Assembly: GCF_000293785.1 (NCBI RefSeq)
Contig: NZ_AKZI01000019.1
Location: 62,001 to 126,000, forward strand
Direction: 5' to 3'
Source: Rhodovulum sp. PH10
Lineage (GTDB): Bacteria > Pseudomonadota > Alphaproteobacteria > Rhizobiales > Xanthobacteraceae
DNA length: 64,000 nt
Part shown: piece by piece, positions 46,384 through 63,338 of the stretch
Layout of the letters: each line of letters starts with the position of its first letter
How positions within the stretch are numbered: position 1 is the first letter of the stretch
Notes under the pieces: model-generated
Database searches by the model: none
What the model was told of the DNA's origin: nothing
The model's input: only the letters and a program-made list of their open reading frames with translations
Program-made: the position numbers and the translations under genes

Positions 46384-47649
46384 TCAGCGCACCGCCTGGA
46401 TCGCGACCAAGAAGCCGCTCGCCGGCAGGGTCGGCAGCTTTGCGAGATCGACCGAGAGGTCCTGGTCCGGCACCTCCCACACGATGTCGCGCGCGAGCGC
46501 GCGGACCATCGTCTTCATCACCGCGATGGTGAGCCATTCGCCCGCGCAGCGGTGGTTCTCGTGGTGCGCGCCGCCGCCCTGCGGGACCATGGTGTAGGCG
46601 TTGCCGGTCCAGCCGAGGAAGCGCTCGGGACGGAACGCCTCGGGGTCCTCCCAGATGCGGCCGTCGTGATCGGTGCCGTAGAGATCGAGGATGAAACGGT
46701 CGCCCTCGTGAAAGGCGTGCTCGCGCCAGGTGAAGGCGGTGCGGGCGACCCCGGCGACGACGGGGAAGAACGGGATGATCCGCCGCACCTCCTGGACGAA
46801 GGCTTCCATATAGGCGTCGTCGCCCGCCACCCGCTCGCGCGTCTCCGGATGCTGGTGCAGCGCCAGCGCGGCGAACACCACGAAGCGGGCGATCGCGACC
46901 GTCGGGCGCAGGATGTTGAGAAGCTCGACCGCGGCGATGTCGGCCGGCAGCAGCGCGCCGCCGCCGTCGCCACCGTTGCCGTCGACACCGTCGCGATGGG
47001 CGGCGATCACCGCGAGCGCGCTCTGCGCGGGCGGCATCGGCCGGCCGGCGCGGACGTCCTCGACCAGGTTGCGCAGATAGCGCTCGGCGCCGCGCCGGAG
47101 CACGCGGGCGGTCCAGTTGGGCGGGCCGATCGTGCCGGCATTGTCGATCATCGCGCCGATCTCGCCGGTGAGGCGGGCGAGGCGCTTCTCGTCGGCCGGC
47201 ACGCCCGCCCAGTCGCACACCACCCGGCACAGGAGCGCGCGCACCTCCTCGTGCAGCGTCACCGTGCGGCCGACCCAGCCGCGCGCCGCCGTGCGCAGGC
47301 CGTCGCCCGCCGCGGCCGCGATCGCCTCGAGCCGCGGCGGCGTCATCAGCGACATCATCATGCCCTTGCGGCGACGGTGCGCCTCGGCGTCGAGAGTGGC
47401 GACGCTGCCCTCGTCCTGCAGCAGCACCAGCGTCGAGCGCGGCAGCGCGCCGACCCGGGTGAAGCGGTCGGGCGTGTAGAACATCTTCGCCGCGTCCTCG
47501 CCGCGCACGCAGTAGAAGCGCCTGCCGAGCAGCCGGGTCTCGAAGATGTCGCTGGCGAACCGCTCGCAGCGGTTGGCGACGAAGCGGTAGCCCTCCGCCT
47601 TGAAGGCGAGCGAGCTGTCGAGGGCGGGATCACGCGGGATCGTCTGCAT
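46384..47649 (-). CDS. CYP152-type cytochrome P450 (fatty-acid peroxygenase)
   Basis: 421-aa soluble P450. The heme-thiolate region PQGGGAHHENHRCAGEWLTI carries C368. The I-helix has NILRPTVAI with R248-P249 where normal P450s have an acid-alcohol pair; this Arg-Pro pair is the hallmark of CYP152 enzymes, in which Arg binds the fatty-acid carboxylate and the enzyme uses H2O2 directly. ExxR is E287-R290 (EVRR), and LYGTDHDGRIWEDPEAFRPERF and VPDQDLSVDL also match the family. Likely product: alpha- or beta-hydroxy fatty acid, or 1-alkene. Its first 20 bases overlap the flavoenzyme gene upstream, so the two form an operon. Confidence 0.92.
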   Translation of the reverse strand: MQTIPRDPALDSSLAFKAEGYRFVANRCERFASDIFETRLLGRRFYCVRGEDAAKMFYTPDRFTRVGALPRSTLVLLQDEGSVATLDAEAHRRRKGMMMSLMTPPRLEAIAAAAGDGLRTAARGWVGRTVTLHEEVRALLCRVVCDWAGVPADEKRLARLTGEIGAMIDNAGTIGPPNWTARVLRRGAERYLRNLVEDVRAGRPMPPAQSALAVIAAHRDGVDGNGGDGGGALLPADIAAVELLNILRPTVAIARFVVFAALALHQHPETRERVAGDDAYMEAFVQEVRRIIPFFPVVAGVARTAFTWREHAFHEGDRFILDLYGTDHDGRIWEDPEAFRPERFLGWTGNAYTMVPQGGGAHHENHRCAGEWLTIAVMKTMVRALARDIVWEVPDQDLSVDLAKLPTLPASGFLVAIQAVR

Positions 47650-48973
47650 CGTGTGTCTCCGAGGGAGTGCGAGGCGCCGGCCCGGCCGGCGCGGCGAGGG
47701 CGAGCATCGACGGGTCGAGCTCGGCGAGCGTTCGGCGGCCCGCGAGCGCGAGCGTCAGGTCGAGGTCGGCCGCGAGATTGTCGATCACCTCGGCGACGCC
47801 GCGCTCGCCCGCCAGCGCCAGCCCGTAGACGTACGGCCGGCCGATCAGCACGGCGGCGGCGCCGAGCGCGATCGCCTTGACGACGTCGGCGCCGGTGCGC
47901 ACGCCGCTGTCGAACAGCACCGGTATTCTGCCGTCGACCGCGCGCACCACCTCCGGCAGCGCCGCAAGCGCGCCGAGCGCGCCGTCCACCTGCCGCCCGC
48001 CGTGGTTCGAGACGACGAGGCCGTCGGCGCCTGCGTCGATCGCCCGCCGCGCGTCGTCCGGATGGACGATGCCCTTGAGGAGGATCGGCAGGCGGGTGCG
48101 CGCGCGCAGGAACGGCAGGTCGTCCCACCGCAGGCTCGGCCGCGAATAGACCGCGAGGAAGCGGCGGATCGCCCGCTGCGCCCGGTCGCTCGCCAGCACC
48201 TCCCACGCGCCGCCCGGCCAGTGCCGCAGCAGCTCGAGCACCGCCGCCAGCGACGGGCGCGGATTTTTTGCGCCGGCGCCGGCGCTCTCCCCGTCTTCGT
48301 CCGGGCCTTCTGCCGGGTCTTCGGCGAGGGCGCGAAACACCGGGTCTGAGAGATAGTTCGCGAGCCCGCGTCCGCGCACGAACGGCAGATAGCCGCCGTC
48401 GAGATCGCGCGGTCGCCAGCCGAGCATGGTGGTGTCGAGCGTCACCACGATCGCCTCGTAGCCGGCCTGCTCGGCGCGCGCGACCAAGCTCTCGGTGAGC
48501 GCGTCGCAGGCCGACCAGTAGAGCTGGAACCAGCGCGGCGCCGACCCGGTCGCCGCGGCGATCTCCTCGAGCGGCCGGCACGCCTGGTTCGACACCACGA
48601 ACGGAATGCCGGCCGCCGCCGCGGCGCGTGCCGCCGGCAGGTCGCCGTCGCGATGGGCGAGGTCGAGCACGCCGATCGGCGCCAACAGCAGCGGCAGCGG
48701 AAGCCGGCGTCCGAACAGCTCCACCGTGAGGTCGCGCTGCGCGGCGCCGGCGAGCATCCGCGGGACGATGCGCCAGCGATCGAAGGCGGCGCGGTTCGCC
48801 GCCATGGTGCGCTCGAGCCCGGCGCCGCCGGCGACATAGGCGGCCGCCTCGCGGCCGAGCGCGGCGATTCCCTTCTGCTCCAGCGCCTGCGCCGACACCG
48901 GCACCGCCGGCCGCCGGCCCGCCATCCCGGACACGAAAAGCCCGGCCTGGCGCGCTCGCCCGCGCGCGGTCAT
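47630..48973 (-). CDS. FMN alpha-hydroxy-acid oxidase/monooxygenase (lactate 2-monooxygenase-like)
   Basis: 447-aa TIM-barrel flavoprotein of the glycolate oxidase/lactate oxidase family. It most resembles lactate 2-monooxygenase in YVAGGAGLERTMAANR, MLGWRPRDLDGGYLPF and SNHGGRQVDGALGALAALPEVV. Active-site residues are Y46, Y152, D180, K300, H324 and R327, with FMN phosphate loops DSGVRTGADVVKA and IGRPYVYGLA. A loop at about 215-240 (AEDPAEGPDEDGES) is unusually acidic. Oxidases of this family release H2O2, while lactate monooxygenase oxidatively decarboxylates. It overlaps the CYP152 gene, which suggests 2-hydroxy fatty acids as substrate (inferred). Confidence 0.87.
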   Translation of the reverse strand: MTARGRARQAGLFVSGMAGRRPAVPVSAQALEQKGIAALGREAAAYVAGGAGLERTMAANRAAFDRWRIVPRMLAGAAQRDLTVELFGRRLPLPLLLAPIGVLDLAHRDGDLPAARAAAAAGIPFVVSNQACRPLEEIAAATGSAPRWFQLYWSACDALTESLVARAEQAGYEAIVVTLDTTMLGWRPRDLDGGYLPFVRGRGLANYLSDPVFRALAEDPAEGPDEDGESAGAGAKNPRPSLAAVLELLRHWPGGAWEVLASDRAQRAIRRFLAVYSRPSLRWDDLPFLRARTRLPILLKGIVHPDDARRAIDAGADGLVVSNHGGRQVDGALGALAALPEVVRAVDGRIPVLFDSGVRTGADVVKAIALGAAAVLIGRPYVYGLALAGERGVAEVIDNLAADLDLTLALAGRRTLAELDPSMLALAAPAGPAPRTPSETHDADDPA

Positions 48974-49167: not shown

Positions 49168-50223
49168 TCACCGCTCGCCGGAGGCGGCGCCGTGCAGCGC
49201 CGCCCGGTCGCCCAGCACGTGGCCGATATAGACGCGGCGGATCAGCACGATCCACATGGCCGCGAACGGCGTCGCCAGCGCCAGCCCGGTGAGGCCGAAC
49301 AGCGTGCCCATCGCCACCTGCACCGACAAGGTGAGCGCCGGCGGCATCGCGATCGCCCGCTGCTGCACCATCGGCGTGATCAGATAGCTCTCGATCGTCT
49401 GCACCACGACGTGCAGCCCGATGGTCCACAGCGCGAGCTGGAGCCCGCCGGCCTCGAGCGCCACCACCGCATTCGGTGCCGTCGAGAGAAACGGCCCGAT
49501 ATTGGGCAAGAAGGTGATCAGCGCCGACCACAGGCCGAGCGTCAGCGCGAACGGAACGCCCAGCACGTAGAGCCCGATCGTGATCAGGACGCCGATGATC
49601 GCCATCGAGATCAGCCGCCCGATCAGCCACCAGAACAGCGTGTTGCCGATGTCCATCAGCACGCGGCGCGCCTCCGCCCGCCCCTCTTGCGGGAACAGCG
49701 ACACGATCCCGCCGACATACAGCGACGGCTCGATCGCCAGATAGATGCCGACGAACAGGACGATGACGATGTCGGTCGCGGCACCGAGCGCGGTCGTGCC
49801 GACGCTCGACAGGGCACCCGACAGGCTGCCGCTCTGCAGCGCCTCGACGCCGTTGTCCCAGAAGTAGCGGCCGATCGGCGACTGCGAGAACAGGGCGTGC
49901 AGGCGGTCGGTGTAATCGGGGATCTTGGCGGCCGCCTCGCTCATCTGGCCGACCACCTGCGGCATCAGGAACCACGACCAGCCGGCGACCGCGAGCACCG
50001 CGACGAGGAGGATCAGCGCCAGCGTCCAGTCGGGTCCGACGCCGACGCGGCGCGAGATCGCCACCGCCACCTTGCGCAGCATCACCGCCAAGAGCACGGC
50101 GCCGAACACCAGCAGGAGAACGTGACCGAGCAGCCAGAACAGCACGACGAGCACCACCAGCCCGACCGTCGCCGCGGCCAGTCCGAGCAGCGGGACACGC
50201 TGGATGCGGTCGATCACGTTCAC
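49168..50223 (-). CDS. AI-2E family transporter (PerM/TqsA-like)
   Basis: 351-aa inner-membrane protein with about eight hydrophobic segments. TM2-3 encloses a long periplasmic loop (MSEAAAKIPDYTDRLHALF), and the C-terminal half has the family signature LPNIGPFLSTAPNAVVAL and LSVQVAMGTLFGLTGLALATP, seen in all AI-2E proteins. The family name refers to TqsA, an AI-2 exporter in E. coli; other members are Na+/H+ antiporters, so the cargo here is not known. It is read divergently from a small unknown gene; a larger relative lies at 50952-53093. Confidence 0.87.
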   Translation of the reverse strand: MNVIDRIQRVPLLGLAAATVGLVVLVVLFWLLGHVLLLVFGAVLLAVMLRKVAVAISRRVGVGPDWTLALILLVAVLAVAGWSWFLMPQVVGQMSEAAAKIPDYTDRLHALFSQSPIGRYFWDNGVEALQSGSLSGALSSVGTTALGAATDIVIVLFVGIYLAIEPSLYVGGIVSLFPQEGRAEARRVLMDIGNTLFWWLIGRLISMAIIGVLITIGLYVLGVPFALTLGLWSALITFLPNIGPFLSTAPNAVVALEAGGLQLALWTIGLHVVVQTIESYLITPMVQQRAIAMPPALTLSVQVAMGTLFGLTGLALATPFAAMWIVLIRRVYIGHVLGDRAALHGAASGER

Positions 50224-50543
50224 GAAAGGCTCCTCGTCGCCAACGGGTATTCACCGGAACAACCGGCCCGGGCGGGAGAGGTTTCTGCCCGCTCGCCGAC
50301 CAGCGCGTCGGCCGGGCGCGTCGAGCGGGCGACGGACCGCACCCCCGGCGTCCGCCGTCGCGTACCGCTGCCGCGGTGCGGCTCGGATTCTCGGTCCGCC
50401 AGCGCACCGCCCGCGCGGGCGGCCGCGCGCCGGCGGCGGGCCCGGGGACTTGTCCGATCGAGGTCTCCGCAACGGCGGCCCGAGCGGACGCCTCGCGGGA
50501 AAGCGACGCGACCGAGGCCTCACGAACCGAGGTGGAGACGATC
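50224..50543. other. Spacer before the small unknown gene
   Basis: 320 bp. The plus-strand frame of the downstream small gene is open back to 50376, but those codons encode an Arg/Ala-rich tract with no conservation signal, so I do not include them. No promoter or RNA gene was recognised with confidence. Confidence 0.4.
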
Positions 50544-50870
50544 ATGACCAGCGACGACCGAAAGAAGAGGGAGCTGCTCGATCTGGTCGAGCGAAAGGCG
50601 TTCGATCCGGTGATGCACGCGCGGCCCGATGGCCGCTCGCCGGCCGACCGGGACGCGCTCGAGGAGGTGAAGCGCAAGACCGAGTCCGAGATCGAGCGAT
50701 ATCGCGGCTACGACTCCGCCGCGACGCTGGTCGCCAATTTCGAGCGGGACCTGACGTCCGAGCCGGCCAAGCGGGTGCATGCCGAGCTGCGGCGGCTCGA
50801 TCTGCCGACCATCGAGGACATCCGCGACGAGTTCGAGCGCAAGGCGGCCGATCTCGGCGTCGGGGCGTGA
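50544..50870 (+). CDS. Small conserved charged protein of unknown function
   Basis: 108 aa, soluble, strongly charged and helical. It starts MTSDDRKKRELLDLVERKAF and contains ADRDALEEVKRKTESEIERYRG and a C-terminal EDIRDEFERKAADLG. GTGGAG precedes the ATG at 9 bp. It has no signal peptide, TM or cysteine. It lies between two AI-2E transporter genes and is divergent from one and convergent with the other. I do not recognise the family. Confidence 0.7.
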   Translation: MTSDDRKKRELLDLVERKAFDPVMHARPDGRSPADRDALEEVKRKTESEIERYRGYDSAATLVANFERDLTSEPAKRVHAELRRLDLPTIEDIRDEFERKAADLGVGA

Positions 50871-50951
50871 CGGCCTCGCCTGACGATCTCTCCGTGGCGG
50901 TCTCGGGACGCGATGGCCGCGTGGCCGCGGGTACGGGTGACGCGCCGGCGA

Positions 50952-53093
50952 TCACCGCTCCGGCGTGGCGAGCGCCGCGCGGGCGATGCGCTTCGGCAAG
51001 GATTTGTTGGCGGATCGCGACGCGCTCTCCGGCTGGTCCTCCGCCGCGGCGGCATCCTCGTCCCGCGGCTGCTGCGGCGGGGCGTCCCCCTCCGGCCGCT
51101 CCTCGATCGCCTCCTCCGGCAAGGCGTGCTCGCTGGCGGCATCGACGCAGGCATTCACCGCCTCGGTGAGCGACACGGCATAGAGGTCGGCGCCGATCGT
51201 CGCCCGCACGCTCTCGCCCTCGCGCGGGCCGTCGCCCGCCGGCCACAGCCCGACCAGGATTTTCGCGTCCGGAAGCTGTCGGCGCAGCCGCCGCACCAGA
51301 TAACGAACGCGCGACAGATTGCCGGTCGGCTCGATCAGCGAGATGCACACCATCGCCACCTCGTCGGGATCGAAGGTGGCGACATGGACGCGCGACAGCC
51401 GATCGCTCGCCACCTCGCGGGCGCCGATGCCGTGCTTGGCGAGCAGCTGCTTCAGCATTGCGGTGGCCGCCTCGTCGAGCGGGCTCGCCCCGGCGATGCA
51501 CAGCACCGGCACGCCGTGGCGCCAGGCGCCGGTGCGCCGCTCGATCGGCGGCGCGATCCGGCCGGGCGGCGCGGCGGCGGGCTCGGCGTCGGCGCGGTCG
51601 TCGGCGACCGGCCCGTCGTTCTTGCGCGGCGTCGGCACCGGCCGGCGATCGTCGTACTCGTCGAGCTCCTCCACCACCTCGCGCACCGCGTCGCGGATGC
51701 GGGCGAGCCGCTGCGGCCCGAGCACGCCGCGCGATGCGTCGCCGGCGGCGAGCGCGAGGCCGCGCAGCGCCACCTCGTCGTAATAGGACGACAGCGCGCG
51801 CGTCTTCAGCAAGGTCTCGGCCTGGTCCTGCACCTCGTCGGGGTCGCCCGCCAGCATCCGCTGATAGAACGTCTCGGTGGAGGTGAGCGCCGGCCGGTCG
51901 CCGAGCAGCACGTCGAGAAATTCCAGCCGGTCGACGTGACGGCCGAGCACCACCAGGCACAGCGTCAGCGGGGTGGCGAGCAGAAGGCCGATCGGCCCCC
52001 ACAGCCAGGTCCAGAACACCGTGGCGATCAGGACCGACACCGGCGACAGGCCGGTCGAGTGGCCGTAGGCGACCGGCTCCACCGCCTGCCCCATCACCGG
52101 CTCGGTGACCGCGAACAGCGCGCCGGTCCACAGCACCATCGACCAGCCGGGATCGACCGCCGCGGCGACCGCCATCGGCAGGAGCGCGGCGACCCACGCG
52201 CCGACATAGGGCACGAACCGGCACAGTCCGGCGACGATCCCCCACAGCACCGGGCTCGGCAGGCCGATCACGTAGAGGCCGAGCGTGACCAGCAGCCCGA
52301 ACACCGTGTTGAGCGCGAGCTGCATGAGAAAGTAGCGGCTCAGACGGTTCGCGGCGTCGTTGAGGGCGACGGTGGTGCGGTGCAGGTCACGCGAGCCGAA
52401 CAGGCGGATGAAGCGATCGCGCAAGTCCTCCTTCTGGAGGAGGATGAAGGTCGCGAACACCAGCACGAGCCCGAGGGTCGCGAGCGGGCTCAGCACCGGC
52501 GAGGCATAGCGCTGCAGCAGCGCGAAGGTGGAGGAGCCGACCTCCTCGTCCTCGCCCCGCTCGCCGGTGCCGCGTCGCCGCTCGGGCGCGGCGGCCTGCC
52601 GTCCGTCGTCGCCGGGAGCGGGCGTCGCCTCGGGCCGCGACGGCGGCTGAATCCCCTGCGGCGTCTCGGCGATCGGCGGGGCCGGCCGCATCTGCTCGAA
52701 GCGATCGACCAGCGTGGTGATCCGGCCGATCGTCATCTCGCGCACGGTGTCGATCTTGGCGCGGATCGTCGTCTCGTAGCGCGGCAGGTCGCCGGCGAGC
52801 CCGGCGATCTGCGTGCCGATCACGCCGCCGATGCTCGACAATACGGAGAGCGCGACCAGGATCGCCACCAGCACCGCCGGCACCCGGCCGAGCCGCAGCC
52901 AGCGCAGCAGCCGCACCAGCGGCGCCAGCACGAAGGTGAGCAGCACCGCGAGCGTGATCGGCACCAGCACGTCGCGGCCGAGATAGAGCGCCGCCACCAC
53001 CACGACGCAGACCGCGAGCGTCAAGAGGCTGGACAGCGACGGCACCTCCGCCGGGCTCACCCGCGGGACCGCGCCACGCTCGCTCTCGGCCAT
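50952..53093 (-). CDS. AI-2E family transporter with C-terminal B12-binding-like domain
   Basis: 713 aa. Membrane part at about 20-395 with TMs from LLTLAVCVVVVAALY onward. The loop at about 100-195 carries a disordered Pro/Arg/Glu-rich insert (PSRPEATPAPGDDG, RRRGTGERGEDEEV). The family signature is RFVPYVGAWVAALLPMAVAAA. The cytoplasmic C-terminal region (about 400-713) includes an alpha/beta Rossmann-like unit at 527-655 (GVPVLCIAGASPLDEAAT, VHVATFDPDEVAMVCIS, LPDAKILVGLWPAGDG) resembling B12-binding or receiver folds, and ends in a charged tail. AI-2E proteins usually stop near residue 400, so this is a fusion that may sense a cytoplasmic ligand. Confidence 0.85.
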   Translation of the reverse strand: MAESERGAVPRVSPAEVPSLSSLLTLAVCVVVVAALYLGRDVLVPITLAVLLTFVLAPLVRLLRWLRLGRVPAVLVAILVALSVLSSIGGVIGTQIAGLAGDLPRYETTIRAKIDTVREMTIGRITTLVDRFEQMRPAPPIAETPQGIQPPSRPEATPAPGDDGRQAAAPERRRGTGERGEDEEVGSSTFALLQRYASPVLSPLATLGLVLVFATFILLQKEDLRDRFIRLFGSRDLHRTTVALNDAANRLSRYFLMQLALNTVFGLLVTLGLYVIGLPSPVLWGIVAGLCRFVPYVGAWVAALLPMAVAAAVDPGWSMVLWTGALFAVTEPVMGQAVEPVAYGHSTGLSPVSVLIATVFWTWLWGPIGLLLATPLTLCLVVLGRHVDRLEFLDVLLGDRPALTSTETFYQRMLAGDPDEVQDQAETLLKTRALSSYYDEVALRGLALAAGDASRGVLGPQRLARIRDAVREVVEELDEYDDRRPVPTPRKNDGPVADDRADAEPAAAPPGRIAPPIERRTGAWRHGVPVLCIAGASPLDEAATAMLKQLLAKHGIGAREVASDRLSRVHVATFDPDEVAMVCISLIEPTGNLSRVRYLVRRLRRQLPDAKILVGLWPAGDGPREGESVRATIGADLYAVSLTEAVNACVDAASEHALPEEAIEERPEGDAPPQQPRDEDAAAAEDQPESASRSANKSLPKRIARAALATPER

Positions 53094-55923: not shown

Positions 55924-56634
55924 TCACTCGGTCGCGGGGCCCGGCGCGGGGGCCGCCATCTCCTCGCCGCCCTCGGCGCCTTCGCCGCGCGTGGTGGTGC
56001 GGTGACGCCGGCGGCGGCGATGCAGCGGGAAGCGGTCGCCGTTCTGCCCGGCCTCGCCGTCGGCGGCGGCAGCCGCGGCAGCGCCGTTCTGCGCGAATGC
56101 CGGGGCCGCCTGCTGCGCCGGCGCGGGCGCGCCGGTGACGAACGACGGCAGCCGCCCGATGTCGTCGTCGCTCTGCGCCGGCTGTGGCTGCGGCTGACGG
56201 ACATAGGCCTGCTCGCGCGGCACGAAGAACTGCGCGTCGCGCGGCAGATAAGGCTGCGGATCGCGGGTGCCGAACGCCGGCTGCTCGCCCTGCGCCGCGG
56301 TCGGCATGCCCGGCTCGTCGTCGCCCTCGTCGAACAGATCGTCGCGATCGCCCGCGCCGCCCTCGTTGCGGAAAAAGCCCGGGGTTTGCCGGAACTGCTC
56401 CTGTGCGGCGGCGATCAGACGGAGATAATGCTCGGCATGTTGAAAGTAGTTTTCCGCCGAAACCGGATCACCGGAGGCCTGCGCATCGCGCGCGAGCTGC
56501 ATGTACTTCTCGGCGATGTGCGACGCGGTACCGCGAATCTTCACGTCCGGGCCGTTCGACTCGTACACCCGCGTGAGCGGATTGTGGCTCTTGCGGTTGC
56601 GCCCCCGCATGCGCTTGTTCTGACCGTTTCTCAT
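55924..56634 (-). CDS. DUF4167 domain-containing protein
   Basis: 236 aa. The DUF4167 core is the first 85 residues: basic start RNGQNKRMRGRNRKSHNPL, then VYESNGPDVKIRGTASHIAEKYMQLARDA (seen as GPDVKIRGTASHIAEKY) and YFQHAEHYLRLIA. The rest is disordered, rich in Gln, Pro, Ala and Asp, and has a very basic patch HRRRRRHRTTTR near the end. It resembles RNA-binding proteins; the gene is conserved next to prmC-prfA in Hyphomicrobiales. ATG 56634 matches the family start. Function unknown. Confidence 0.88.
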   Translation of the reverse strand: MRNGQNKRMRGRNRKSHNPLTRVYESNGPDVKIRGTASHIAEKYMQLARDAQASGDPVSAENYFQHAEHYLRLIAAAQEQFRQTPGFFRNEGGAGDRDDLFDEGDDEPGMPTAAQGEQPAFGTRDPQPYLPRDAQFFVPREQAYVRQPQPQPAQSDDDIGRLPSFVTGAPAPAQQAAPAFAQNGAAAAAAADGEAGQNGDRFPLHRRRRRHRTTTRGEGAEGGEEMAAPAPGPATE

Positions 56635-57120
56635 GATGTCGGCTTTCGGCCACCTCTGATTGCGGCGGTCCGGCCGCCGGTTACGCGGTTTGCATCGGCC
56701 GGACCGAAGCCGGCCTCGTCGGCTGCGCCGTGCATCCCCGTGAAAAAACGGCGCACAGCCGATCCGATGGGCGCCCTCGGGGCGCGCCAAAATTCACCAA
56801 AGACGGCAGCTTGCGTCCGCAGCCCGCCCGCGGCGCTGCAACCTCTCACGATACCCGCGGCGCTCGCGGTCACCGCGACCGGAAGCGCGTGCAGAAGCCG
56901 TTGAAGTCCCTCGATCCCGAGTGGCGGAACACCAATCCTGTTGATCGGATTTTGCGTGCCGCTCGTCGTCGCTGCATGCCTCGCAGAGCCGTGCTCCGGG
57001 CGTCGTGCGCAGCGGTCCAACCCCGACCCAGGTCGATTCCGTAAGCGGAACCTAGTCGCTTCGGCCGGATAATCAAGCTCTTTTTTGGCGGCGGATGAGA
57101 AACACTTTCGGATTTGTATA
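56635..57120. other. Leader/spacer between prmC and the DUF4167 gene
   Basis: 486 bp with no convincing gene; minus-strand open frames here have no conserved features. The stretch 57060-57120 is relatively AT-rich (TAATCAAGCTCTTTTTTGGCGG, with a T6 run on the plus strand). A long 5' leader for the DUF4167 transcript is possible, since this gene family is often autoregulated in my experience of similar loci, but nothing proves it here. Confidence 0.4.
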
Positions 57121-57993
57121 TCAGGTCGGCAGCTGTGCCACGACGGCACGCGGAACTCCGGAAAGATCCTTATACGGGACACGGCAAACAAGGCCGACCG
57201 CCTCGAACAAAGCCGGGACGGACCTTTCCTGACCGATGCCGATCTCCACCGCCAGCACGCCGCCGGGCGCCACGAGGCGGCGCGCATCGGCGGCGATCGC
57301 GCGATAGGCGTCGAGCCCGTCGACACCACCGTCGAGCGCGAGATGCGGATCGTACTCTCTCACCTCCGGCGCGAGCGTCGCGATCGCGTCGCGCACGACA
57401 TAGGGCGGATTGGAGACGACCAGATCGAGTTTTCCGGCGAGCGCCGATCCGAAATCGCACAGGACGAAATGCGCGCGATCGTGCAACGCCAGTGTCTCGG
57501 CATTTTTTCGCGCGACCTGGAGGGCGTCGATGCTGCGATCGGTGGCGACACCGCAGGCGTGCGGCAGCTCGGTCAGGAGCGCGAGCAGCAGCGCGCCGGA
57601 GCCGACGCCGAGATCGGCGATGCGTTTCGCCCGCGCGCGGCCGCCGGTGGCGTCGAGCGCGGCGAGCGCCGCCTCGACCACCGTCTCGGTGTCGGGCCGC
57701 GGATCGAGCACCGCCGACGTGATCAGGAGTGGCAAGCCCCAGAATTCGCGGCATCCGAGAATGCGCGACACCGGCTCGCCGGCGAGGCGGCGCGTCACGA
57801 ACGAGGCGATCCGCGCGCACGCCGCGCCGTCGAGCGCACGCTCGGCGGCCGAGACGAGGCCGGCGTGATCGAGCGCGAGCGCGTGGCCGATCATGAGCCG
57901 CGCATCGAGGGCCGGCGTCTCGACGCCGTTTTCGCGCAGCGCCGCCGTCACGACCCGCCGCGCCTGCGCGATCGTGATGCCGGCGGGAACCAT
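57121..57993 (-). CDS. prmC: Release-factor glutamine methyltransferase PrmC
   Basis: 290-aa SAM methyltransferase that modifies the GGQ glutamine of RF1/RF2. The N-terminal helical domain is followed by the SAM motif IADLGVGSGALLLALL and the catalytic NPPY in VVSNPPYVVRDAI. PRPDTETVVEAALAAL matches the family too. It follows prfA in the same direction, separated by a 292-bp spacer with repeats. Confidence 0.94.
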   Translation of the reverse strand: MVPAGITIAQARRVVTAALRENGVETPALDARLMIGHALALDHAGLVSAAERALDGAACARIASFVTRRLAGEPVSRILGCREFWGLPLLITSAVLDPRPDTETVVEAALAALDATGGRARAKRIADLGVGSGALLLALLTELPHACGVATDRSIDALQVARKNAETLALHDRAHFVLCDFGSALAGKLDLVVSNPPYVVRDAIATLAPEVREYDPHLALDGGVDGLDAYRAIAADARRLVAPGGVLAVEIGIGQERSVPALFEAVGLVCRVPYKDLSGVPRAVVAQLPT

Positions 57994-58100
57994 CAGAGTT
58001 TGCCGAAACGGCGGATGGCCGAGTCAGGACGAGCCGTTGCCGAAGCGGTGCTCACCCCGCGGCTGCACGAAGGGGGCTCGGAGACCGCTCCGGATGCGGC

Positions 58101-58256
58101 GCGTCTCCCTCTCCCCGCGTGCGGGGAGAGGGTGGGGGTGAGGGGGGAGAGGGTCGGGGTGAGGGGGGGAATTTCGGGTGCAGCAGGCGACGCCCCCTCA
58201 CCCGGAGTCCTCGCTCGCGCTCGGACTCCGACCTCTCCCCGCACGCGTGGAGAGGT
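58101..58256. repeat. Composite palindromic intergenic repeat between prfA and prmC
   Basis: CCCTCTCCCCGC (58107-58118) and GCGGGGAGAGGG (58121-58132) form a long hairpin. A G-rich direct repeat of about 21 bp follows, with two copies of AGAGGGTxGGGGTGAGGGGGG from about 58128 to 58169. Then come GGAGTCC/GGACTCC arms (near 58205 and 58223) and a second CCTCTCCCCGC-type arm near 58232. This Arg-rich-free, purine-biased element is of a kind widespread in Hyphomicrobiales spacers. Confidence 0.65.
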
Positions 58257-58285
58257 GCGCCGATGGCCGGCGACGAGAAGCTCGC

Positions 58286-59365
58286 TCACGCGATTCCGCC
58301 TTCGGCGGCGAGCAGCGCGGCGTTGTGCTCGGCCATCAAGGCGTCGACGATCTCGCCCAACGCCTCGCCCTGCATCACCTGCGGCAGCTTGTAGAGCGTC
58401 AGGCCGATGCGATGATCGGTAACGCGCCCCTGCGGGAAATTGTAGGTGCGGATGCGCTCGGAGCGGTCGCCCGAGCCGACCTGCCCGCGGCGGTCGGCGG
58501 CGCGCTCGCTGTCACGGCGCTGGCGCTCGGCGTCGTAGAGCTTCGCCCTCAGCATCGCCATCGCCTTGGCGCGATTCCTGTGCTGCGAGCGCTCCTCCTG
58601 CACGAACACGACGATGCCGCTCGGCACGTGCTTCACGCGGATCGCCGACTCGGTCTTGTTGACGTGCTGGCCGCCGGCGCCGCTCGACCGCATGGTGTCG
58701 ATCTCGAGGTCCTTCTCGTCGATCGCGACGTCGACCTCCTCCGCCTCCGGCAGCACCGCGACGGTGGCGGCGGAGGTGTGGATGCGGCCGGACGCCTCGG
58801 TCTCCGGCACCCGCTGCACCCGGTGCACGCCCGACTCGAACTTCAGCCGCGCGAACGCACCGGCGCCGCGGATTTCCGCGACGATCTCCTTGTAGCCGCC
58901 CATCGTGCCTTCGCTCGCCGAGACGATCTCGGTCTTCCAGCCCTGCAACGCGGCGTAGCGCTCGTACATACGAAAGAGATCGCCGGCGAACAGCGCCGCC
59001 TCGTCGCCGCCGGTGCCGGCGCGGATTTCCACGATGACGTTGCGCGCGTCCATCGCGTCCTTGGGGATCAGCGCGAGCCGCAGCTCCTGCTCCAATCTTT
59101 CGCGCGTCTCCTCGAGCGTGGATCGCTCGCTCGCCGCCACGGCGCGCAGCTCGGCGTCGGTCGCGGCATCCGTCATCATCTCGTCGACGTCGTCGATCTC
59201 GCGCAGCACGGCCGCGTAGCGGTCGATCGCCTCGACCACCGGCGTCAGCTCCGACAGCTCACGTGACAATCGTGCGAAAACCTCCGGCGAGGTCTTTTCC
59301 GAAAGCTCCGCCTGCAGGGCGGCATGGCGCGTGACGAGCGCCGCGAGTTTGTCCGAGGGGAGCAT
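58286..59365 (-). CDS. prfA: Peptide chain release factor 1
   Basis: 359 aa, standard RF1 length. The peptidyl-hydrolysis loop GGQ is at 231-233 ([12 protein letters not shown]). The stop-codon-reading tripeptide of the PxT type is PET (187-189, in [16 protein letters not shown]), so it is RF1 and not RF2. It is 9 bp after ptsP, so the two are co-transcribed. Confidence 0.96.
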
Positions 59366-59374
59366 CGATCGGCC

Positions 59375-61642
59375 TCAGAGCGTCAGCCCCTCCGCCTCGG
59401 CGAAGGCGGTGAGCTTGGCGCGGATCGAGGCGGTGCCGAGCGGCAGCGCCATCAGCTGGCCGATCAGCCGCTCGGCCTTGCCGACGTCGAGATCGAGCAG
59501 CATCGCCTTCACCGGGCCGACCGCGGAGGGCAGCACCGAGAAGGCGCGGAAGCCGATGCCGATCAGCGCCAGCGCACCGAGCGGCTTGGAGGCCAGCTCG
59601 CCGCACAACGTCACCGGCTTGTCGTGCACGCGCGCCTTGTCGACGATCAGCTTGAGCGCCCGCAGCACCGGCACCGACAAGGGATCGAACCGGCTGGCGA
59701 CCCGCGGATTGCCGCGATCGGCGGCGTACATGAACTGCAAGAGATCGTTCGAGCCGACCGACAGGAAGTCGACCCGGTCGAACAGCTCGTCGAGCTGGAA
59801 CAGCAGCGAGGGCACCTCGAGCATGGTGCCGACCTCGACCCGCTCCGGCAGCCGGTGGCCGTGCCGGCGCAGATGCGTCAGCTCGCGCTCGACCAGGCCC
59901 TTAGCCTCGTCGTACTCGTCGACCGCGGCGATCATCGGGAACATCACCCGCAGCTCGCGGCCGGCCGCCGCGCGCAGCATCGCCCGCACCTGGCTGCGCA
60001 GAAGGCCCGGCCGGTCGAGCCCGAGGCGGATCGCCCGCCAGCCGAGCGCCGGGTTCTCCTCCTCGAAATTGCGCATGTAGGGGAGCACCTTGTCGCCGCC
60101 GATGTCGAGCGTGCGAAACACCACCGGCCGGCCGCCGGCGGCGTCGAGCACGTTGCGGTAGAGCGCGAGCTGCTCGCTGGTGCGCGGAAACTGCGAGGCC
60201 ACCATGAACTGCAGCTCGGTGCGAAACAAACCGATGCCGGCGGCGCCGGTCTCCTCGATGTGCGGCAGGTCGACCGGCAGGCCGGCATTGATCATCAGCG
60301 TGATCGGGTGGCCGTCGCGGGTGACCGAGGGGCGATCGCGCAGGCTGAGATACTGGAGCTGCCGGCGGGCGCGCAGCCGCACCCGCTCGATATAGGCCTG
60401 CTCCATGTCGGGCGAGGGCCGGACATGGACGTCGCCGGTGGCGCCGTCGACGATGATGCCGTCGCCGGGATCGACCAGGCCGGTGGCATTCGGCACCTCG
60501 CCGACCGCGGCGATGCCGAGCGCGCGGGCGACGATGGCGACGTGCGAGTTCGGGCCGCCCTCCTCCAGCACCAGGCCGCGCAAGCGGTTGCGGTCGTAGT
60601 CGAGCAGCGCCGCCGGCCCCATCGAGCGGGCGACGATGACGGCGTGCTCGGGCAGCTTGTCGCGGGTCGGTGCGTGGTCGTAGCCGAGCAGCTGGCGCTG
60701 CAAGCGATGCGCGAGGTCGTCGAAATCGTGCAGGCGCTCGCGCAGGTAAGGGTCGGTCTGGCGCAGCATGCGCGCGCGGGTGTCGGACTGCACGCGCTCG
60801 ACCGCGGCCTCCGCGGTGAGGCCGGTCAGCACCGCCTCCTCGAGCTTGTGCACCCAGCCGCGATCGTGGGCGAACATGCGGTAGGCCTCGAGCACGTCGC
60901 GGTGCTCGCCACCCTCCGCCACCTCGCCGCTCTCCAGCATCAGATCGAGCTCCGCCCGCAGCGTCTCGATCGCGACGCCGAGCCGGCGCAGCTCCTTCTG
61001 CACGTCGTCGGCGATGAAATTGGTGATGACGACGCGCGGCTCGTGCAGCACCACGTGGCCGAGCGCGATGCCGTCGGTGAGCGCCGCCCCCGTCACGTGC
61101 ACCGGCCGCCGGACGGCGGGCTCGGCCCCGGGCCGCGCCAGCGAGAGAAGCTCGCCCGAGGCGATCATCTCGGCGAGCACCATCGCGGTGGTCTGGAGCG
61201 CCTCGACCTCTTCCTCGGAATAGGTTCTGCGCGCCCGATTCTGCACCACCAGCACGCCGAGCGTGTTGCCGGCGCGCAGAATCGGCACGCCGAGGAAGGA
61301 GCGGTAGATCTCCTCCCCGGTCTCCGGGCGGTACGAGAAGGCGGGGTGGGCCTGGGCGTCCGACAGATTGATCGCGCTCGCCTCGGTGGCGACCAGGCCG
61401 ACGAGGCCTTCGTCGGCGCGCATCACGGTCTGGTGGACCGCCTGCCGGTTGAGACCCTCGGTGGCATAGAGCTCGAGCGTGCCGTCGACCCGCAGGACGT
61501 AGCAGGAGCACACCTCCGCGACCATGTTCGCGGCGATCAGCACCACGATCTTGTCGAGACGTTCCTGCGCGCTGACCGGCTCCGCCATCACCTCGCGGAG
61601 GCGCCGTAACAGCACGCGTGGACCGCCGAGCGCACCGCGCAT
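59375..61642 (-). CDS. ptsP: PEP-protein phosphotransferase PtsP (EI-Ntr)
   Basis: 755-aa enzyme I of the nitrogen PTS. It has an N-terminal GAF domain (about 25-165) for glutamine sensing in relatives, then the EI domains. The phospho-His is H367 in EGGPNSHVAIVARALGI, the PEP-binding part has GIGLFRTELQFMV, TLDIGGDK, and the catalytic region SVGSNDLLQFMYAADRGN and VTLCGELASKP. It passes phosphate to NPr and EIIA-Ntr, which are not in the window. Lies between lysC and prfA, as usual in Hyphomicrobiales. Confidence 0.95.
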   Translation of the reverse strand: MRGALGGPRVLLRRLREVMAEPVSAQERLDKIVVLIAANMVAEVCSCYVLRVDGTLELYATEGLNRQAVHQTVMRADEGLVGLVATEASAINLSDAQAHPAFSYRPETGEEIYRSFLGVPILRAGNTLGVLVVQNRARRTYSEEEVEALQTTAMVLAEMIASGELLSLARPGAEPAVRRPVHVTGAALTDGIALGHVVLHEPRVVITNFIADDVQKELRRLGVAIETLRAELDLMLESGEVAEGGEHRDVLEAYRMFAHDRGWVHKLEEAVLTGLTAEAAVERVQSDTRARMLRQTDPYLRERLHDFDDLAHRLQRQLLGYDHAPTRDKLPEHAVIVARSMGPAALLDYDRNRLRGLVLEEGGPNSHVAIVARALGIAAVGEVPNATGLVDPGDGIIVDGATGDVHVRPSPDMEQAYIERVRLRARRQLQYLSLRDRPSVTRDGHPITLMINAGLPVDLPHIEETGAAGIGLFRTELQFMVASQFPRTSEQLALYRNVLDAAGGRPVVFRTLDIGGDKVLPYMRNFEEENPALGWRAIRLGLDRPGLLRSQVRAMLRAAAGRELRVMFPMIAAVDEYDEAKGLVERELTHLRRHGHRLPERVEVGTMLEVPSLLFQLDELFDRVDFLSVGSNDLLQFMYAADRGNPRVASRFDPLSVPVLRALKLIVDKARVHDKPVTLCGELASKPLGALALIGIGFRAFSVLPSAVGPVKAMLLDLDVGKAERLIGQLMALPLGTASIRAKLTAFAEAEGLTL

Positions 61643-61945
61643 CGCGTGAGGTCCTTCAGGTGCGAGTCGGACCGGCCGGCCCGAGGGACGTTGCCGGCAC
61701 GTGTCGAGGGAACCGGGTCCGGGGCGGACCGGATCGCGATTCCCCGATGGTCATAGCGAATGCCCCGCGTGCGCTGCAAGCGAAAGCAACGGCCGCGGCG
61801 CGACCCCGGCGGGCCGGGTCGACGCTTTGCGGCGAAATGGTTTGGCTTTGTGGCGAAATGGTTTGCACCGCTGCCGCCGGCGGCGGCAACGGGGCGCGGC
61901 CGGAGCGCACCGGCGCCCCGCCACGAAACGCCGGCGGGCGGCCGG
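61643..61945. other. Spacer between lysC and ptsP
   Basis: 303 bp with no gene. It holds a two-copy 21-bp tandem repeat (61825-61866) whose core decamer is repeated in inverted orientation before ubiG. A promoter for ptsP-prfA could lie here, but none was clear. Confidence 0.5.
61825..61866. repeat. Two 21-bp tandem repeats downstream of lysC
   Basis: CTTTGCGGCGAAATGGTTTGG (61825-61845) is followed directly by the same unit with two changes (61846-61866). The shared core is GGCGAAATGGTTTG. Confidence 0.8.
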
Positions 61946-63199
61946 TCAGGCCTTGTCGAGGCCGTAGAGCGTGTGCAGCGTGCGCACCGCGAGCTCGGTA
62001 TAGGCGGCGTCGATCAAGAGCGAGAACTTGATCTCGGAGGTGGTGATCGCCCGGATGTTGATGCCGCGGTCGGCCAGCGCGCGAAAGCCGCGTGCGGCGA
62101 CGCCGGCGTGGCTGCGCATGCCGACCCCGATCACCGACACCTTGCACACGTCCTCGGCGACGTCGAGCCGGGCGAAGCCGATCGTTTCGCGCGCCGTCTC
62201 CACCGTCGCCTTGGCGCGCTCGAAATCGGCCGCAGGCACGGTGAAGGTGAGGTCGGTGGTCTTGCCGTCCGGCGACACGTTCTGGACGATCATGTCGACA
62301 TTGATGTTGGCGTCGGCCAGCGGCCCGAAGATCGAGGCCGCGACGCCGGGCTTGTCCTCGACGTTGCGGACGGAGATCTGCGCCTCGTCGCGGGAGAAGG
62401 CGATGCCGGTGACGACCTCGTGTTCCATGATCTCGGTCTCGTCGCAAATCAGGGTGCCGGGCGGGGGCCGGTGCGGGTCGATGTCCTCGGGGGCATCGAA
62501 GCTCGAGCGGACGAAGATGCGGACATTGTGGGTCATGCCGAGCTCGATCGAGCGCACCTGCATGACCTTGGCCCCGAGCGAGGCCATCTCCAGCATCTCC
62601 TCGAAGGCGATCTTGTCGAGCCGGCGGGCTTTCGGCACCACCCGCGGGTCGGTGGTGTAGACGCCGTCGACGTCGGTGTAGATGTCGCAGCGGTCGGCCT
62701 TGATTGCGGCGGCGAGCGCCACCGCCGAGGTGTCCGAGCCGCCGCGACCGAGCGTCGCGATCCGGCCGCTCTCGGCGTGGATGCCCTGGAAGCCGGCGAT
62801 CACCGCCACCTCGTTGCGCTCGGCGAACGCCTTCACCAGCGGCGCACCGTCGATGTCGAGGATGCGGGCGGAGCCGTGCGCGTCCGAGGTTTTGATCGGA
62901 ATCTGCCAGCCCTGCCAGGAGCGCGCCGGAATCCCGAGCGCCTGCAGCGCGATCGCCAGCAGCCCGGAGGTCACCTGCTCGCCGGATGCCACCACCGCGT
63001 CGTACTCGCGCTGGTCGTGCAGCACCGAGGCGGCGCGGACGAGATCGACGAGCTTGTTGGTCTCGCCTTTCATGGCGGAGACCACGACGGCCACCTCGTG
63101 GCCGGCATCGACCTCGCGCTTGACGTGGCGGGCCACGTTGCGGATGCGATCGATGTCGGCGACCGAGCTGCCGCCGAACTTCATCACGAGTCGGGCCAT
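61946..63199 (-). CDS. lysC: Aspartate kinase
   Basis: 417-aa kinase that makes aspartyl phosphate for lysine, threonine and methionine. N-terminal VMKFGGSSVAD carries the catalytic Lys; YTDVDGVYTTDPR and GRGGSDTSAVALAAA bind ATP and aspartate; two ACT domains at the end (AQISVRNVEDKPGVAASIFG and VSVIGVGMRSHAGVA) give lysine/threonine feedback. ATG 63199 is used; the open frame upstream covers the divergent ubiG and is not coding. Confidence 0.96.
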   Translation of the reverse strand: MARLVMKFGGSSVADIDRIRNVARHVKREVDAGHEVAVVVSAMKGETNKLVDLVRAASVLHDQREYDAVVASGEQVTSGLLAIALQALGIPARSWQGWQIPIKTSDAHGSARILDIDGAPLVKAFAERNEVAVIAGFQGIHAESGRIATLGRGGSDTSAVALAAAIKADRCDIYTDVDGVYTTDPRVVPKARRLDKIAFEEMLEMASLGAKVMQVRSIELGMTHNVRIFVRSSFDAPEDIDPHRPPPGTLICDETEIMEHEVVTGIAFSRDEAQISVRNVEDKPGVAASIFGPLADANINVDMIVQNVSPDGKTTDLTFTVPAADFERAKATVETARETIGFARLDVAEDVCKVSVIGVGMRSHAGVAARGFRALADRGINIRAITTSEIKFSLLIDAAYTELAVRTLHTLYGLDKA

Positions 63200-63338
63200 G
63201 GCGGGACGGGTCGTGCTCCGGAACGGTGCGCGCGAAGGCTTGCATCGGCGCGGCCCCGGCGCGAGAAAGGCGCGTATACATAACGGCGGGAAGGCGGCGT
63301 GGCAACCGGCCGCGCCGCGGGTGCCGCACACCGCCACG

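Follow-up and report, generated by a model that had tools for sequence, protein, structure and literature searches.

An overlapping CYP152 peroxygenase and 2-hydroxy-acid flavoenzyme gene pair as a candidate native acid α-oxidation module

A gene for a CYP152-family P450 peroxygenase and a gene for an FMN-dependent 2-hydroxy-acid oxidoreductase overlap on the minus strand of the window, the whole 64,000-nucleotide stretch of Rhodovulum sp. PH10 DNA analyzed here (contig NZ_AKZI01000019.1, positions 62,001 to 126,000), and the same gene order recurs in other lineages. The best reading of this pair, which we consider reasonably probable on the evidence of the genes, is a dedicated two-enzyme module for acid α-oxidation in which the product of the P450 would be relayed to the flavoenzyme as its substrate.

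The flavoenzyme is encoded by the upstream gene of the pair (P0002; 447 aa; 47630..48973, minus strand, with its ATG at 48973 and its stop at 47630) and the P450 by the downstream gene (P0001; 421 aa; 46384..47649, minus strand, ATG at 47649, stop at 46384). Direct reading of the sequence confirmed the 20-bp overlap of the two frames (47630..47649, minus strand) that a first-pass annotation of this DNA had reported. The start codon of the flavoenzyme is backed by homologues, and the junction holds, within the flavoenzyme frame, a GGAG that resembles a Shine-Dalgarno sequence for the P450 (47657..47660, minus strand); AGGAG and GAGGAG occupy the same site in G861 and G1033, two further genomes that carry the pair. 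The structure is thus operon-like, and each gene is present as a single copy in the source genome. A fructosamine-kinase-family gene lies convergent to the pair on its 3′ side, and 195 bp upstream of the pair is an AI-2E family transporter gene (49168..50223, minus strand; Pfam AI-2E_transport), which possibly shares its transcript; no AI-2E transporter stands beside the pair at loci L059 and L188. In the window, two such transporter genes stand in tandem on the upstream side of the pair (49168-53093). Further upstream, lysC, ptsP, prfA, prmC and a DUF4167 gene (55924..63202, minus strand; located by searching the window with G861 proteins in tblastn and by lists of open reading frames) share their order and strand with G861, and this block is a syntenic landmark outside the module. 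The pair directly follows the DUF4167 gene in G861, and an alpha-amylase-family gene and the two AI-2E transporters lie in between in the window. This shared position fits common descent of the locus; alternatively, it may mark an insertion hotspot. A conserved third gene was considered and rejected, as the flanking genes differ among the window, Jiella and G861.

The P450 matched NF053744 (CYP152 CypC) over its full length (residues 2-415) with 465 bits, and because this is below the equivalog cut-off of 600 bits we assign it to CYP152 and not as a CypC orthologue. The I-helix Arg-Pro pair of CYP152 enzymes binds the carboxylate of the acid; it is present here as R248-P249 (codons 46908-46903, minus strand), and the heme-thiolate ligand is Cys368 (codon 46548-46546, minus strand). 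All three residues, already pointed out in the first-pass annotation, are invariant in 30 aligned CYP152s. Sequence and fold matches in the PDB were 6fyj, 1izo and 3awm, with 6fyj and 1izo nearest, and an AlphaFold model built from 30 sequences (pLDDT 91) matched CYP152K6 (6fyj) with a TM score of 0.95, P450BSβ and P450SPα being close behind. The P450 is predicted to be an H2O2-using fatty-acid hydroxylase. In its pocket, Ala84 (codon 47400-47398, minus strand) takes the position of P450BSβ Gln85 and OleT His85, where 78 of 93 CYP152s have Gln, and Gln78 takes that of Phe79. P450SPα, an exclusive α-hydroxylase, has Leu79, and the F79L substitution in P450BSβ moves the product toward α-hydroxylation (PMC5377825). 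C2 specificity is something that we infer for the present enzyme, since no characterized enzyme with an Ala84/Gln78 pocket was found among the CYP152s that could be compared. The idea that Ala84 is unique to the clade of paired P450s was rejected, as four CYP152s outside it (L039, L095, L111 and L201) have Ala at the same position; the literature examined describes no activity for such variants.

The flavoenzyme matched Pfam FMN_dh (PF01070) with 415 bits and conserves the Tyr, Tyr, Lys, His, Arg catalytic set of its family (Y46, Y152, K300, H324 and R327), in keeping with the complete active site that the first-pass annotation had ascribed to it; it is predicted to oxidize 2-hydroxy acids. 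Its nearest single-domain solved relatives are structures of Mycobacterium smegmatis lactate 2-monooxygenase (LMO; 6dvh/6dvi). Assignment to the LMO subfamily, as first proposed, proved too precise: in an IQ-TREE phylogeny the LMO-like sequences form a separate branch (100/100), which places the flavoenzyme in a sister group of LMO and not among the true LMOs, and the lid region, counted between fixed motifs, spans ~80 residues in the clade (88 in the flavoenzyme of the window), whereas LMO-like relatives have 47. Gly101 (codon 48673-48671, minus strand) is invariant in the flavoenzyme clade and aligns with LMO Gly99 and with Ala95 of lactate oxidase. When Ala95 of lactate oxidase was replaced by Gly, specificity moved to long-chain 2-hydroxy acids and no monooxygenase was created (PMC7312611). 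Gly101 and the long lid would fit larger substrates; Gly101 also agrees with LMO-like coupled decarboxylation, yet it does not discriminate between the peroxide fates considered below. An AlphaFold model of the flavoenzyme was discarded, as only two sequences were usable and the pLDDT was 40.

The FMN_dh family includes dehydrogenases, and the LldD and PRK11197 models match the flavoenzyme, each below its cut-off. (S)-mandelate dehydrogenase is a membrane- or carrier-coupled dehydrogenase, and the hydrophobic lid insert of the present enzyme could contact a membrane. One may therefore postulate a scenario in which the flavoenzyme, as a membrane- or carrier-coupled dehydrogenase, acts on 2-hydroxy acids derived from the P450 without forming H2O2, so that the pair would break acids down to 2-oxo acids at the expense of peroxide from outside. 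We regard this scenario as improbable, given that the closest solved relatives are the O2-reactive LMO and lactate oxidase and that no gene for a transmembrane or respiratory partner is found repeatedly next to the pair.

Conservation beyond a single species, which the first-pass annotation had named as a check of its proposal, was observed in four genomes with the co-directional order of flavoenzyme then P450 (the window, Jiella sp. LLJ827, G861 and G1033, representing four lineages) and in one with a divergent arrangement. At the Jiella locus (L059) the flavoenzyme and P450 are 61% and 50% identical to those of the window and are separated by 107 bp. Both proteins of G861, which was found by searching Jiella relatives with the Jiella flavoenzyme, are ~60% identical to those of the window, with a gap of 12 bp; G1033, found by searching relatives of a Roseomonas metagenome-assembled genome (MAG), has a P450 of 67% identity, a gap of 20 bp and a flavoenzyme of 65% identity over the part that precedes the contig end. 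The divergent case is G1134 (L197). Its CYP152 belongs to another clade and is oriented head to head with a flavoenzyme of the clade found in the pairs, the matches being 266 bp apart, which links the two families independently for a second time. Jiella sp. LLJ827 (G803) also carries a second CYP152 (L176), which belongs to another clade and has no flavoenzyme beside it.

The distribution of the pair is rare and patchy. CYP152 was present in none of five other members of the genus, and none of 12 further CYP152s from a sample of the order (397 genomes) had such a flavoenzyme within 1.5 kb. A search of one genome per species across 84,980 species yielded at least 80 CYP152 loci, and among the 80 matches listed one was paired, that of Jiella sp. 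LLJ827; on these counts pairing as a general trait of CYP152 was rejected. No record in a plasmid collection held the pair, and the best plasmid flavoenzyme (P. cervicalis, 65%) adjoins an aldehyde dehydrogenase gene.

All four co-directional P450s fall within one six-member clade (support 100/100) whose members all have Ala84, and the flavoenzymes of the co-directional pairs fall within one 12-member clade (97/91). A flavoenzyme of the latter clade is carried by five of the six genomes of the P450 clade, the exception being the Roseomonas MAG G782, which has a close P450 and no flavoenzyme. Among 293 Roseomonas-related genomes, the relatives of that MAG, CYP152 was found in 10, the flavoenzyme in four and both in three, such that CYP152 occurs in 3/4 flavoenzyme carriers versus 7/289 others (Fisher p=1.1e-4, or p=3e-6 when G1033, whose flavoenzyme is cut by the contig end, is counted; both values ignore kinship among the genomes). 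The effective number of co-occurrence events is smaller than these counts, because the genes of G1103 and G1157 are close relatives of one another. Taken with the recurrent order and the restriction to one P450 clade, this above-chance co-occurrence supports a functional linkage of the two genes as judged from their sequences. The pairing label requires three changes on the P450 tree and three on the flavoenzyme tree, and gain and loss, or transfer, have therefore occurred. Co-phylogeny was unusable as proof of joint descent, as resolution inside the clades is poor and the two trees show no clear congruence.

This lack of clear congruence, the rare and patchy distribution and the location of the pair behind one conserved block in both the window and G861, a potential insertion hotspot, are features that one would also meet if two accessory genes with no metabolite in common had merely traveled together, in a mobile region or one prone to insertions. 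Such hitch-hiking appears very unlikely, however, given that the four co-directional occurrences involve P450s only ~50-68% identical to that of the window and span lineages as distant as Aurantimonadaceae and relatives of Roseomonas, with the divergent occurrence in G1134 and the co-occurrence of p=1e-4 (kinship ignored) in addition.

Unpaired members of the flavoenzyme clade occur in other contexts, including G831 and G1104, which have the flavoenzyme without CYP152, so a CYP152 partner is not obligatory for the clade. In Caenispirillum the flavoenzyme adjoins an AMP-binding acyl ligase gene. A sister clade (L179-L187, from G888-G927), 55-60% identical to the flavoenzyme of the window, adjoins phasin and MaoC-type hydratase genes in several genomes; phasin is a protein of PHA granules, and the presence of an FMN 2-hydroxy-acid enzyme in this storage-polymer context is unexplained. 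G404 (L125/L133) encodes a 53% identical relative with a short lid, whose gene precedes those for a MerR regulator and a thiolase, an arrangement like that of fatty-acid degradation clusters. Neighbors of these kinds (acyl ligase, phasin/MaoC, thiolase) would be compatible with acyl substrates. In Roseomonas E05 and G1104, MR/MLE-family genes lie near an unpaired flavoenzyme of the pair clade, which suggests that other acids may serve as substrates.

The latter surroundings bear on an alternative in which the flavoenzyme is a peroxide generator only, oxidizing an unrelated and abundant small 2-hydroxy acid to fuel the P450, whose own product would not be its substrate. Unpaired relatives that have MR/MLE-family genes and transporter genes of small-acid metabolism nearby are in line with this scenario, as is G1134, where a flavoenzyme of the same clade accompanies a CYP152 of a different clade, as expected if peroxide alone is shared. 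Gly101 and the ~80-residue lid favor bulky substrates, however, and many other oxidases could supply peroxide, whereas a 2-hydroxy-acid enzyme is specifically what one would expect for a relay from a fatty-acid α-hydroxylase. We thus consider a generator role unlikely, though less so than either of the alternatives above.

Under the preferred relay, the P450 would use H2O2 to hydroxylate a fatty acid, or another acid of medium to long chain, at C2, and the co-translated FMN enzyme would convert the resulting 2-hydroxy acid with O2 to a 2-oxo acid and H2O2. The H2O2 of the flavoenzyme would then either go back to the P450, closing a peroxide cycle, or decarboxylate the 2-oxo acid to a Cn-1 acid and CO2. 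We favor the relay because of the overlapping frames, the recurrent order, the clade restriction, the co-occurrence, Gly101, an in vitro precedent and some of the acyl-gene neighbors; it is weakened by Gln78/Ala84, which are uninformative on regioselectivity, by the MR/MLE neighbors, by the unpaired carriers and by the patchy distribution. As to its two forms, we can propose only tentatively that peroxide is returned, which would make the pair a native self-fueling fatty-acid α-oxidation operon whose cycle is driven by O2 alone after priming. Coupled decarboxylation within the relay seems somewhat less likely still. LMO uses peroxide within its active site, in a coupled decarboxylation with no release of H2O2, and an LMO-like relay would shorten acids by one carbon and consume outside peroxide. 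Of the chain-shortening module proposed in the first-pass annotation, the linkage of the two genes is borne out by gene order, P450 clade and co-occurrence, and the chemistry is one that we infer; the idea itself has been published in the form of an engineered cascade (PMC5768024).

These possibilities matter for how CYP152 enzymes are fueled. A review gives the H2O2 route as the likely physiological one for CYP152, and a term search of its text brought up no natural peroxide source (PMC5818669). The conserved pairing with a 2-hydroxy-acid flavoenzyme in one operon provides a concrete candidate for such a source. In their wide use, CYP152 enzymes are supplied with peroxide from outside, and we know of no natural, dedicated peroxide source for any of them; a self-fueling operon, if true, would be the first. 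The pair also suggests a bacterial α-oxidation route in which acids are shortened by one carbon. The first-pass annotation knew of no described native pair, and a full-text literature search likewise found none, an absence that is suggestive only given that most subscription journals lay outside its scope.

Among characterized enzymes, P450SPα (CYP152B1), P450BSβ (CYP152A1) and CYP152K6 share the fold of the P450 (TM 0.92-0.95), its Arg-Pro pair and its heme Cys at ~41-42% identity, and differ in having Gln84/85 and Leu/Phe79 where the present enzyme has Ala84 and Gln78; no flavoenzyme partner for these three is described in the literature examined. M. smegmatis L-lactate 2-monooxygenase (6DVH) has the FMN_dh fold, the catalytic residues and the Gly99-equivalent glycine in common with the flavoenzyme, whose lid is ~33 residues longer and from which the LMO-like enzymes are set apart by their 100/100 branch. 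Aerococcus viridans lactate oxidase Ala95Gly likewise has a Gly facing flavin N5 and prefers long-chain 2-hydroxy acids (PMC7312611), although it is a laboratory mutant of a lactate enzyme, whereas the Gly of the present flavoenzyme is natural and invariant in its clade. The closest parallel is the cascade engineered by Gandomkar et al., in which P450CLA or P450SPα and an (S)-α-hydroxyacid oxidase recycled H2O2 internally in vitro on C6-C10 acids, P450SPα being (S)-selective and the (S)-oxidase accepting its product (PMC5768024). It joins the same two enzyme classes in the same proposed chemistry, but does so with enzymes of unrelated organisms, whereas the present pair is native and overlapping and draws on another flavoenzyme subgroup. 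The peroxide-recycling cascade that chemists assembled in vitro may already operate in nature, and for this cascade, so far known in engineered form only, the pair provides naturally matched enzymes.
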